Assembly (NCBI RefSeq): GCF_001697185.1
Contig: NZ_CP014224.1
Coordinates: forward strand, 372,001 to 436,000
Reading direction: 5' to 3'
DNA from: Wenyingzhuangia fucanilytica
GTDB lineage: Bacteria; Bacteroidota; Bacteroidia; Flavobacteriales; Flavobacteriaceae
Length of the DNA: 64,000 bases
The notes under the pieces: model-generated
What the model was told of the DNA's origin: nothing
The model's database searches: none
The model's input: only the letters and a program-made list of their open reading frames with translations
In this document: positions 2 to 59,827 of the stretch, in pieces
Layout: every line of letters begins with the position of its first letter
Numbering within the stretch: the first letter of the stretch is position 1
Translations under genes and position numbers: made by a program

Positions 2-1906
2 ATGTCAGAGATTCTAGAGGATGGAACTACAGCTATTGGAGGAGTTAAATTTAGAAAAAGAGTAGAACCAAACGAAACGCTAACAACACATATAAATAAT
101 GTAGTGGTGCCTTCTGGAGCTGGAGAAGTTACATTGCGTATTGCTGGTAGGTTTTGGGAAAGTGGTATGCAGCCAAAAGAAATAACATTCAATGGACATT
201 CACTTCCGTTAACAACAGATTGGAGAGGAGAAACTCGTGATTCTAGAAATGTATGGTTTGGAGTCTATGAATTAGATGTTCCTATCGAGTATTTAGAAAC
301 TAATAATACTGTTACATGTACAGCTAAAGGAAATTACGCAGAGTATACAACTGTTATGATTCAGGTTTTTGATTTTAGTAAAGAGCCAAAACGATCTGAT
401 AAAATAGCTTCGGTTGCAGTTACATCACTTGCGATTGATGAAGCGTCTTTAGATCTTATGGTAGATGAAAATAAGGCTTTGAATGCACATGTAGTTCCAG
501 AAAACGCAACGAATACTGCGGTTACTTGGTCTTCGTCAAATGAAGGAGTAGCTACGGTAGATGAGTTTGGAATAGTGACAGGTGTTTCTGAGGGAACAGT
601 AACCATTACTGCAACTTCTGTAGATGGAAGTTTTACAGATTCAGCAACGGTAAATGTATCTGCTTTTTCTGCAACAGCTGTATCTAGTATATCGATTAAC
701 GAAGGGGATACTATGTCTATTGAGTATTACAAAACGACACCGCTTCAAGTAAATATTAACCCAATAAACGCTACAGAACAAAATGTTAGCTGGTCATCTT
801 CAGATACGAGTATTGTTGAGGTAGATTCAAATACAGGAAAAGTAGTAGGGAAAGTAATATATGGAACGGCAACTATTACCGCTACGCTTACAGATCCTAA
901 CAACGGCGGAATGGTTCACTCTGCAAGTACTTTGATTACTGTAGATCCTCCTGCAGATTTTGTTTCTGTAACAGGTGTAAGTATTACTCCAGATGAGAAA
1001 ACATTAACGGCTATTGGAGAAAAGGTGCAGTTAACAGAAGTTGTGCTTCCTTCTAATGCAACTATAAAAACACATACTTGGTCGTCTAGTGATACTAATG
1101 TTGCTACGGTTACAGAGAATGGATTGGTAACGGCTGTGGCGAATGGTACTGCACAAATAACAGTGGTTACTACCGATGGTGATTTTAGTGCTAGTTGTAA
1201 TTTAATAGTAGAGATCAGTACTGATACAGGGAATAAGATAGTGATTGAAGCAGAGGAGTTTAATACAACAGGTGGAACTTTTGATGATGGATACGTTGCT
1301 GCTCCTTATGGAGTAAATAAAGGGTCAACTGCTATTAATTATGTAAACTCAGGCGATTGGGTAACTTATGAAAATGTTAATGTAGAAGATGCCGCAGAAT
1401 ATAACATTGTTTACTTTATTTCAACACCTGTGGCAAATGCTCAAGTACAGATATCAGTAGATGGGAATATTGTTTCAACAGACAATGTTACAAATACTGG
1501 TGGATGGGATAGTTATGGGGCTTTAACTGCTTCACAATCCATAGAATTAACTTCTGGAATGCATACAGTTAAAGTTGTAGCATCAGGTTCTAATGCTTGG
1601 CAATGGAATCTAGATAAGATAGAGTTTCAGCAAAAAACATTAAGTACAAAGGCGTTTAAGAAAACGGTATCGAGTGCTTATATCTATCCAAATCCAGTTG
1701 TAAATAGTTTAACAATAAATGGAGAAAATTCTCAAGAGGCTTTTGTCGTTAGAATTTTAACTCCACAAGGAAGTTTGTTAAAGGTTCTTAAAATTGATGG
1801 AATTCCTAGCACTATTGATGTATCTGATTTAGATACTGGAGTATATTTATTAAATGTTGGAAATACAACAGTTAACAAAACGCTAAAAATGGTAAAAACT
1901 AAATAA
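2..1906 (+). CDS. Secreted multidomain protein, 5' truncated: three Ig-like (Big_2) repeats, CBM6, T9SS sorting tail
   Basis: The gene is cut by the window edge, so the ATG at base 2 is probably internal. About residues 1-130 form a beta-rich region. Three bacterial Ig-like repeats follow (about 135-220, 225-315, 320-403), each with the TWSSS/SWSSSD core and the ATV..G.VT pattern. A CBM6-like module starts at EAEEFN (about 410-540) and has the W/NLDKIEF end typical of that family. The tail has the YPNPV motif and a T9SS type A sorting region (about 560-634). The protein is therefore exported and carbohydrate-binding. The first 130 residues faintly resemble the beta-sandwich that follows the catalytic barrel in GH86 agarases and porphyranases, from memory only. 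The neighbouring agar-type operon fits that reading, but the catalytic domain lies outside the window. Confidence 0.8.
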   Translation: MSEILEDGTTAIGGVKFRKRVEPNETLTTHINNVVVPSGAGEVTLRIAGRFWESGMQPKEITFNGHSLPLTTDWRGETRDSRNVWFGVYELDVPIEYLETNNTVTCTAKGNYAEYTTVMIQVFDFSKEPKRSDKIASVAVTSLAIDEASLDLMVDENKALNAHVVPENATNTAVTWSSSNEGVATVDEFGIVTGVSEGTVTITATSVDGSFTDSATVNVSAFSATAVSSISINEGDTMSIEYYKTTPLQVNINPINATEQNVSWSSSDTSIVEVDSNTGKVVGKVIYGTATITATLTDPNNGGMVHSASTLITVDPPADFVSVTGVSITPDEKTLTAIGEKVQLTEVVLPSNATIKTHTWSSSDTNVATVTENGLVTAVANGTAQITVVTTDGDFSASCNLIVEISTDTGNKIVIEAEEFNTTGGTFDDGYVAAPYGVNKGSTAINYVNSGDWVTYENVNVEDAAEYNIVYFISTPVANAQVQISVDGNIVSTDNVTNTGGWDSYGALTASQSIELTSGMHTVKVVASGSNAWQWNLDKIEFQQKTLSTKAFKKTVSSAYIYPNPVVNSLTINGENSQEAFVVRILTPQGSLLKVLKIDGIPSTIDVSDLDTGVYLLNVGNTTVNKTLKMVKTK

Positions 1907-39727: not shown

Positions 39728-40684
39728 TTAATGATTGTTGAATTTTGATGGAATAGGAGCTTCTATTAAAAAAGGTTCGTTTTGGTAAGTAAAAGAAAGT
39801 TTCCAGGCATGTAGGAACAAACAATCCGTATCGTATGTAAGAGGATTGTTTTTAAAGTAGTTGATGTCCTTGTATCCATAATCACCAACTATGGGATGGT
39901 TTAAGTCGGCTAAATGTAGTCTAATTTGATTAGTTCTACCAGTATAAGGAATCACCTCTAGCAATGTGGTATTTTTATTAGGATATCTTTCTAAAACCTT
40001 AAACTCTGTGTAGGCTTCTATTCCGTGGTTAGAACTAGCTCTTCCTCCTCCGGCGGTTTTCTGAATTCCTATTTTTGTATTAGTGTTAAAAGAATCTTTT
40101 TTAGGAATTCCTTCAACCAAGGCTAAATAAGTTTTTTGGGCTGATTTGTTTTCAAACTGTTCTCCTATACTTTTTACAATTTCTTTGTTTCTAGCCAAAA
40201 TAACAATTCCTGTGGTGTTGGCATCTAATCTATGGATGATTTTTAAATCTTCTTCGGGTAGTGCTAATTTTAAAATTTCGGTTAAACTATTCTTGTTAAA
40301 CCTTCCGCTAGGGTGCATTGGGAGTGGAGCGGGTTTGTTAATAATAATGATGTTTTCATCACTAAACAATAAGTCTATTTTATTATTTACCCAAGGTTCT
40401 GTTTTAGGTTCTGAGGTGTGTTGAGTAATATCTCCTCCTTTTACTATGGTTGATGTTGTTGCGGGTTTTCCGTTAATCAATAAAGTTTGATTCTGTATTT
40501 TTTCTAGCCAAATATCTTTGTTCGAACGTGGGACTAGTTCAAGAAAAAAATCAATAATATTTAATCCTTCATATTTTTTTTTAACAGGAAGTTTATACTG
40601 AGTAGGGTAGGCAACAGCGCCAGGTAAAGGTTCTGTAATAGCCTTTATTTGCTGATTAAAATACGTTGTAGAAATAGCGCTCAT
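39728..40684 (-). CDS. RluA-family RNA pseudouridine synthase
   Basis: The 318-residue protein has an S4-like N-terminal part (QTLLINGKPATTSTIVKGGD) and the RluA catalytic block IIHRLDANTTGIVILARN, with the active Asp in HRLDANT. Late marks are TGRTNQIRLHLADLNHPIVGDYGY. It isomerises uridine in rRNA or tRNA; the exact site is not predictable. A minus-strand TACTTTTG lies at 40692-40699, so the transcript would start almost at the ATG. Confidence 0.92.
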   Translation of the reverse strand: MSAISTTYFNQQIKAITEPLPGAVAYPTQYKLPVKKKYEGLNIIDFFLELVPRSNKDIWLEKIQNQTLLINGKPATTSTIVKGGDITQHTSEPKTEPWVNNKIDLLFSDENIIIINKPAPLPMHPSGRFNKNSLTEILKLALPEEDLKIIHRLDANTTGIVILARNKEIVKSIGEQFENKSAQKTYLALVEGIPKKDSFNTNTKIGIQKTAGGGRASSNHGIEAYTEFKVLERYPNKNTTLLEVIPYTGRTNQIRLHLADLNHPIVGDYGYKDINYFKNNPLTYDTDCLFLHAWKLSFTYQNEPFLIEAPIPSKFNNH

Positions 40685-58124: not shown

Positions 58125-59827
58125 ATGAATCCATTTATAGTATCTGCACGAAAATACAGACCTCTTACTTTTGAGGATGTTGTTGGTCAAAAAGCAATTA
58201 CCAATACGCTAGAAAATGCTATAAAAAATGATCATTTAGCTCAAGCATTGTTGTTCACAGGGCCAAGAGGTGTTGGTAAAACAACTTGTGCTCGTATTTT
58301 GGCAAAAAAAATAAATGAACAAGCTACTGGAGCAGAGGTTGAAGATGATTTTGCGTTTAATGTTTTTGAATTAGATGCAGCATCTAACAATTCGGTAGAT
58401 GATATTAGGTCTTTAATAGACCAGGTTCGTATTCCTCCACAAGTAGGAAAATTTAAAGTTTATATTATTGATGAGGTACATATGTTATCTCAAGCTGCTT
58501 TTAATGCTTTTTTAAAAACATTAGAAGAGCCACCTGCTCATGCTATATTTATTTTAGCAACTACAGAAAAACATAAAATCATTCCAACAATTTTATCACG
58601 TTGTCAAATTTTTGATTTTAAAAGAATCACAGTTTTAGATGCAAAAGAGCATTTAAAAAGGATTGCGGATCAAGAAGATGTTACAGCCGAAGACGATGCT
58701 TTACATATTATTGCTCAAAAAGCTGACGGGGCTATGCGTGATGCATTGTCTATTTATGATAGAGTAATCAGTTTTGCAGGAAAAGATTTAACCAGATTGG
58801 CAGTTACCGAAAATTTAAATGTTTTAGATTACGACATTTATTTTAAGGTAACAGATTTAATTATAGATAATAAAATTCCAGAAGTACTTGTAGAGTTTAA
58901 CAATGTTTTGTCAAAAGGTTTTGATGGGCAACATTTTATTAACGGTTTGGCTTCTCATTTTAGAGATTTATTAGTTGCTAAAGACAATACTACTGTTTCT
59001 TTACTTGAAGTAGGTGATAATGCAAAAAGACAATATTTAGACCAGGCCAACAAAGCCGACTTGTCTTTTTTAATGGCTGCTATTGATAAAGCTAATAGTT
59101 GTGATTTACAATATAGAGCTAGCAAAAATCAAAGACTTTTAGTAGAACTTTGCTTAATGCAATTGGCTTCAATTACTTTTAGTGATGTAAAAAAAAAAGC
59201 AGTAACTTCATAATACCCGCTACTTTTTTTAGAAGTCATATTCCAGTTAGTACTCCAAAAAAAGAAGAAAAAGCACAAGTTATATCCGTTCAGCAAAAAC
59301 AGGTAGAACTTAAAAAAGAATCTGTTGCTACTAAACCAGCTCCAACTATTGCCGCTGCAGCAGCAAGACGAAGAAGAGCTTCAGCATTATCTTTAAAAAA
59401 TATACACTCAAAATTAACTGATTTAGATTACAAATCTACAGATGAAGATTTGAGTAGTAAACCTAAAACGCCTTTTTCAGAATTTACCTTGATAGATAAA
59501 TGGTCTGCCTTTGGAAAACTATTGCAATCCGAAGGAGAATTAAATATGGCATCTATTATTAATGCCAATAAACCGGTACTAAAAAACAATCAAATTATTT
59601 TTGCATTACCTAATAAGTTAATGGAAGATCAGTTTGGGCTTGTTAGAGGTAAGTTGTTAAATTATTTAAGAGAAGAATTAAATAATTATGGTATCGTGGT
59701 TAAAACTGAAGTTGTTCAAGAAGAGGTAAAAAAATACATTTATACTCCTCAAGAAAAATTTCAAAAATTAGTAGAGTCTAATCCAGACGTAATGTTATTA
59801 AAAACAAAATTCGGATTAGATATTTAA
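58125..59827 (+). CDS. dnaX: DNA polymerase III subunit gamma/tau, frame broken at an A10 run
   Basis: The clamp-loader ATPase begins MNPFIVSARKYRPLTFEDVVGQ and has Walker A GPRGVGKTTCARILA, Walker B IIDEVHML, and SRC-motif LSRCQIFDF. The usual four-Cys zinc loop after Walker A is replaced by a short acidic segment, as in other flavobacteria from memory. The zero frame runs 58125-59213 (362 codons) and stops 12 bases after ten A at 59189-59198. The frame continues without a stop in -1 (or after one added A) to 59827: KKKSSNFIIPATFFR, a linker, then the tau C-terminus ending FGLDI. Full-length tau would have 567 residues. The genome frame alone gives a gamma-like product. Confidence 0.9.
59189..59198 (+). 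other. A10 slippage site in dnaX
   Basis: Ten consecutive A encode V-KKK in the zero frame. One extra A in the mRNA, or a -1 ribosomal shift, joins the two reading frames. Eleven A would encode the uninterrupted protein. See the finding for alternatives. Confidence 0.75.

Follow-up and report, generated by a model that had tools for sequence, protein, structure and literature searches.

The window analyzed here, a 64,000-nucleotide stretch of the Wenyingzhuangia fucanilytica genome (a single contig of 3,427,057 bases, 3.43 Mb), contains a dnaX gene whose gamma-like and tau-only parts are encoded in different reading frames (Table 1). The gene starts with the ATG at 58125, and across a run of ten adenines its zero frame reads GTA AAA AAA AAA GCA GTA ACT TCA TAA, so that translation stops at codon 363, 12 bases past the run. 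The -1 frame is uninterrupted from the A run to its own TAA, and its first residues are KKKSSNFIIPATFFR. The gene comprises 1703 bases, and the addition of one A yields 1704 bases, or 568 codons. The computed masses of the products are 40.4 kDa for the 362-residue zero-frame protein and 63.7 kDa for the 567-residue protein obtained with one extra A, close to the values of about 40 kDa for gamma and about 63 kDa for tau given in the original prediction. The coordinates, codon count, and length arithmetic of that prediction were reproduced on recomputation, and both the letters and the profile matches described below confirm its reading of a zero-frame stop after the A10 with tau in the -1 frame.

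Table 1. Coordinates of dnaX features in the window
Feature	Position	Strand	Remarks
Zero-frame ORF of dnaX	58125..59213	+	Gamma-like product, 362 aa (AAA+ domain, lid, domain III)
A10 slippery run (proposed)	59189..59198	+	At the domain III/tau junction
Zero-frame stop TAA, ends gamma	59211..59213	+	Tau-frame Ile codon ATA (59210–59212) plus the next A
Third-frame (zero +1) stop TAA	59203..59205	+	Reached only with a run change of -1 or +2 A
Tau-only part of dnaX, -1 frame	59189..59827	+	Stop TAA 59825–59827

In profile searches, the zero-frame part matches TIGR02397 (dnaX_nterm) with 378 bits, above the cut-off of 250, as well as PF13177 and PF22608. Its score against the domain III model PF12169 (21.4 bits) lies under the cut-off of 24.4, and the zero-frame half alone scores 629 against the full-length gamma/tau model NF011531, under the cut-off of 685. 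The -1 part matches the gamma/tau C-terminal region of NF011531 (profile positions 428–613, E 1.4e-21) and a tau-tail profile made from 69 intact relatives (E about 1e-49); a Pfam search matched no family to this tail. The window gene is a dnaX gene, with N-terminal clamp-loader domains above the curated cut-off and a tau C-terminal region. It is also of the two-ORF dnaX type of Antonov et al. (2013), in that its ORFs are adjacent, tau lies in the -1 frame relative to the genomic frame, and the transition coincides with an A run that is kept in relatives. The Thermus-type arrangement, in which tau occupies the genomic frame, is absent from the window gene and present in 187 of 280 relatives.

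Conservation of the A run and of the tau frame

An identical A10 and an identical frame occur in all six other Wenyingzhuangia genomes compared here, whose N-terminal dnaX proteins are 86–96% identical to that of the window, and in all seven genomes of the genus the tau frame remains open for 202–208 codons past the run. The tau frame is under purifying selection, with dN/dS values of 0.12–0.30 compared with 0.04–0.07 for the N-terminal part in the six comparisons of a congener with the window. These observations bear on the two alternatives raised with the original prediction. An A10 is an error-prone context for sequencing or assembly, but we give a homopolymer error almost no credence: it is ruled out by the six congeners at this level of divergence and by the wider family, in which 21 of 118 matches from a draw of one per genus (the genome of the window included) have an open frame shorter than 450 aa and a +1 form is common to 13 loci of one genus. 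A recent frameshift mutation is excluded by the same congeners and the same wider family. The further proposal that dnaX has lost tau through a real mutation and that the tail is decaying accords with the closed genomic frame; however, such a loss is made extremely improbable by a tau frame that is under purifying selection and, in seven of seven genomes, has no stop for over 200 codons.

Long A runs are otherwise rare in the W. fucanilytica genome. Runs of at least ten A occur at 20 separate sites on both strands (21 overlapping matches), and A9 is matched five times in the window compared with 24.4 times in shuffled sequences.

For a broader comparison we collected 285 dnaX loci, from which three paralogue hits (leaving 282) and then two exact duplicates were dropped to give 280. 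This set is non-random, being composed of nearest relatives, even draws, and 120 hand-chosen stretches, 12 of which were picked because their frame is short; the counts over the 280 loci come from related species and hence are not independent. We sought the A run over approximately 80 codons (about 330–410) and took codons 1–330 of each gene as a control. A run of at least nine A is present near the gamma/tau junction in 245 of the 280 loci, compared with a single such run in the 277,200 bases of the control, where none of 13 Lys-Lys-Lys triplets is encoded entirely by AAA. The run is found in 57 of 60 loci with a GC content below 35%, 127 of 132 at 35–45%, 44 of 60 at 45–55%, and 17 of 28 at 55% or above; at a GC content of at least 50%, 30 of 51 loci carry it, whereas independent choice of Lys codons predicts 5.8. 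Uninterrupted relatives without a conserved run, which the original prediction had named as evidence against itself, are not the pattern observed, given that 158 of the 187 intact relatives keep the run. Among the 35 loci lacking a run of at least nine A, 21 are distant (42–48% identity). We considered whether short A_AAA_AAG sites replace the long runs in these loci and rejected the idea, since only 8 of the 35 have an A6–A8 stretch in the 90 codons scanned.

Further arrangements occur in family f29 and in one reduced genome. In family f29, the distant relatives L241, L246, L247, L249, L250, and L252–L257 keep an A9 or A10 and have both intact and interrupted frames; in pairs such as L255/L256 the state differs through changes 3′ of the run and not through run length. 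The 0.3-Mb genome G051 encodes a 345-codon dnaX (L195) with no long A run and no recognized tau tail, and gamma-only replication may be possible in this reduced genome.

Genomic frame states among relatives

Among the 280 loci, the tau part is in the zero frame of the genome in 187, in the -1 frame in 75, and in the +1 frame in 9; of the nine loci without an assigned frame, seven have no tau hit and two are cut by contig ends. In this set, -1 states exceed +1 states by about eight or nine to one. The run-bearing loci comprise 158 intact, 72 -1-state, and 8 +1-state genes, and within each state A10 is more frequent than any other run length (122, 57, and 5 loci, respectively). Four interrupted loci (L108, L174, L192, and L259) lack a run of at least nine A and fall outside the slippage model presented below; they may be assembly errors or reflect another mechanism. 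Of the +1 loci, L177 is doubtful because it contains an N and a 77-codon zero-frame tail, and L049 and L059 are represented by single genomes each.

Three genera document the +1 state within closer relationships. In the genus of genome G031, 19 loci have a readable run, of which 13 have tau in the +1 frame, four are intact (L304, L307, L309, and L313), and two have no tau hit. The sequence GGC AAA AAA AAA ATC TAA/TAG occurs in 14 loci of this genus, including L017, and 13 of these have the tau tail in the +1 frame; L306, on a contig of 3,081 bases, has the +1 motif and no tau hit. The +1 tau frame of this genus has a pN/pS of 0.23–0.36 in seven comparisons; we entered 12 of the 14 motif-bearing loci, and the motif search missed 4 of these, which were therefore left out. 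In the genus of G216, the two genomes are each in the +1 state. In the genus of G145, for which 56 genomes were matched and 31 loci read, 28 loci are intact, two are -1 (L333 and L345), and one is +1 (L114), so that all three frame states occur in one genus.

A FastTree phylogeny of the 280 N-terminal proteins requires a minimum of 36 changes between intact and interrupted states. Shuffling the labels on the tree (200 sets) gave a mean of 69 changes and a least value of 59, which indicates that the trait is also inherited. The minimum depends on the branch support demanded, decreasing from 36 with no cut to 33, 33, 26, and 15 at support cuts of 50, 80, 90, and 95, respectively. We think it reasonably likely that much of Bacteroidota has a frame-indifferent dnaX, in which an A9–A11 run would give rise to mRNAs in all three frames, two of them closed by kept stops and the third encoding tau, while the genomic phase would drift almost neutrally among 0, -1, and +1, with at least 15 to 36 flips in the sampled loci and the run as the conserved element.

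Stops outside the tau frame and the mechanism of tau synthesis

The frames that do not encode tau are closed soon after the run. As a control we used the N-terminal portion of each gene, the composition of which may differ from that of the linker. Among the 158 intact run-bearing genes, 157 have their -1 frame closed by a stop within 10 codons (control 65–66%) and 143–144 their +1 frame (control about 50%; the two counts reflect slightly different start points), and the third frame of the 72 run-bearing -1-state genes, the window gene included, has such a stop in 70 cases (control 49%). Codon choice just 3′ of the run provides a sharper test. An aromatic/His-Ile-Ile/Val/Leu/Met motif is present at this position in 62 of the 158 intact genes and absent from the other 96, and the first Ile of the motif is encoded by ATA in 60 of the 62 genes, whereas 14.8 would be expected from the codon usage of the individual genes; at the next Ile, ATA is used in 11 of 59 genes, compared with 13.7 expected. 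In intact genes, ATA at the first Ile followed by a codon starting with A creates a TAA in the +1 frame. The corresponding Ile is ATA in 33 of the 35 -1-state genes that have the motif (37 more do not), and in the window this same Ile codon supplies the gamma stop. Past flips could account for part of the ATA signal in intact genes. Slippage of RNA polymerase on the run would produce mRNAs in each of the three frames, and with such mRNAs both the third-frame stops and the choice of ATA would be expected.

We therefore favor transcriptional slippage, at a probability of roughly 85%, as the means by which this dnaX would make both gamma and tau from one DNA sequence. RNA polymerase would add or drop A residues on the A10, so that mRNAs of several run lengths would coexist. 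Transcripts with 10 (or 13) A would be in the genomic frame and would yield gamma of approximately 40 kDa; those with 9 or 12 A would enter the third frame and yield gamma with a slightly different tail; and those with 11 (or 8 or 14) A would enter the tau frame and yield tau of approximately 64 kDa. Gamma would thus come from two mRNA frames and tau from the third. Because slippage would mix the frames, there would be little constraint on one-base shifts of the genomic frame, while selection would preserve the run length and both stops. What the sequences show is the run with its conservation, the frames and their flips, the stops, and selection acting on the tau frame; from these data we infer slippage in this organism, its efficiency, and the use of both products. 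Antonov et al. (2013; PMC3711429), in the passages available to us, regard it as a criterion for slippage that genes sharing a function undergo frame transitions of either direction, and both -1 and +1 dnaX genes occur here. The claim of the original prediction that tau requires slippage at the A10 thus gains comparative support from the +1 relatives and from the third-frame stops.

The principal rival is programmed -1 ribosomal frameshifting on A_AAA_AAA/G within the run, which would resemble the E. coli system with reversed polarity. Several features agree with it: a zero-frame A_AAA_AAR heptamer is present in all 72 run-bearing -1-state genes (A_AAA_AAA in the window), tRNA-Lys(UUU) is the sole lysine tRNA among the tRNA genes found, the excess of -1 over +1 states is one that a ribosomal shift would also favor, and Atkins et al. 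(2016; PMC5009743), in the part of that review consulted, name ribosomal frameshifting for such genes. However, a -1 shift leads only from the zero frame to the -1 frame, so that no tau could be made from +1-state genes; it leaves the conserved third-frame stops and the choice of ATA in intact genes unexplained; and an A_AAA_AAG heptamer would suffice for it, yet runs of 9–11 A are kept. The +1-state relatives, together with stops kept in a frame inaccessible to a -1 shift, lead us to prefer slippage by RNA polymerase, and we regard ribosomal frameshifting as an unlikely source of tau.

The tRNA survey identified 50 tRNA genes (RF00005; 150 of 309 candidates scored), including three for tRNA-Lys, all with a UUU anticodon; anticodons were assigned by ARAGORN for 25 of 30 loci, with neighbors covering the other five, and for 19 further stretches. 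The argument for slippage from two tRNA-Lys species, which Atkins et al. (2016) give for Thermus, finds no counterpart here, given that only UUU was seen among these 50 genes. With the zero-frame heptamer in every -1-state gene and tRNA-Lys(UUU) alone, ribosomal slippage may add to the mix. Slippage of both RNA polymerase and the ribosome on the same run has some precedent in the statement, in the portion of PMC3711429 examined, that transitions at poly-A/T may arise in transcription or translation, but nothing in the data requires a second layer, and we consider this combination still more doubtful than ribosomal frameshifting alone.

Downstream of the run, strong folds (z < -1.5) occur in 15% of -1-state genes compared with 6% of controls, a difference in the direction expected for ribosomal frameshifting; however, mean z is -0.19 for the 72 -1-state genes compared with -0.17 for their control, and is -0.42 for intact genes compared with -0.15. 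Given no clear excess of structure and a z of 0.13 in the window, we rejected a downstream hairpin stimulator, although one may be present in some -1-state relatives. In a 121-nt fold around the window's run, the A run pairs with a U run farther along (z -0.94), and 33 of 200 shuffled sequences do as well. No Shine-Dalgarno-like stimulator was seen by eye upstream of the run in the window.

Known dnaX systems and other A runs in the genome

Two-ORF dnaX genes that depend on recoding are already known as a kind. The GeneTack survey of Antonov et al. (2013; PMC3711429), as far as seen, describes 17 genes in 12 genera, Chloroherpeton and Chlorobium being named, in which tau needs recoding; all 17 are -1, nine have an A10, and slippage is suggested. 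The window gene is like these in having gamma in the genomic frame, tau reached by a -1 transition, and an A10, whereas +1 genes, frame flips, and third-frame stops are absent from the survey passages seen, and Bacteroidota may be among its nine A10 species. The dnaX gene of Thermus thermophilus (Larsen et al. 2000, as described in the parts seen of PMC1088944 and PMC5009743) also combines an A run with stops in both other frames and slippage to two products, as proposed here. In Thermus, tau is encoded in the genomic frame and gamma arises by slippage, whereas the window gene is reversed; intact relatives in the phylum resemble Thermus dnaX. The original prediction was correct about this reversed polarity, with the genomic frame giving gamma, which Antonov et al. 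(2013) had already described.

According to the portions of PMC5009743 and PMC3711429 at hand, E. coli dnaX is similar in its Lys codons, A_AAA_AA heptamer, tRNA-Lys(UUU) alone, and a gamma end soon past the site; it differs in having six A and a G where 9–11 A are found here, and the present genes differ from it in their reversed polarity, in their third-frame stops, and in downstream structure that does not clearly exceed that of controls. In Blochmannia (PMC3017870, seen in part), dnaX is likewise broken in a homopolymer and slippage is suggested, but this gene belongs to an endosymbiont and its break lies inside the tau-only region, unlike the window's break at the gamma/tau junction. In a literature search for which subscription papers were mostly out of reach, and with sources seen in part, we found no description of the +1 state, of a run kept throughout the phylum, of repeated flips, or of third-frame stops, and nothing on the dnaX of this phylum.

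If our reading is correct, an essential replication gene would routinely depend on transcriptional slippage, and in many genomes gene callers would list dnaX as truncated or broken. Genes that occur naturally in the 0, -1, and +1 states offer a ready means of distinguishing slippage from ribosomal frameshifting and of testing why the short gamma persists; the reason for the short gamma of E. coli is described as controversial in the part seen of Atkins et al. (2016; PMC5009743).

Other A runs in the W. fucanilytica genome provide a few additional observations. A second A10, near position 83746 of G000:C1 (L286:833-1699 and 633-842, minus strand), lies between an ORF for a SASA esterase (PF03629) and a T9SS type A sorting tail (TIGR04183, E 1.3e-9) in a different frame from the esterase ORF. 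Slippage or phase variation at this site could decide whether the esterase carries a secretion signal; within the genus, only relatives of 41–47% identity were found for it. We read the other 18 of the 20 sites with at least ten A from stop to stop. One (L294) is inside a 118-aa ORF with weak, sub-threshold similarity to BacA, and two more (L295 and L301) lie just past the beginning of open stretches, of 297 and 300 codons, so that the run probably precedes the start codon; the remaining sites among the 18 have no open stretch longer than 100 codons. Finally, an A9 run at 40574–40582 of the window (minus strand) lies inside a minus-strand ORF (39728–40684, 318 aa) and is a possible further slippage site.
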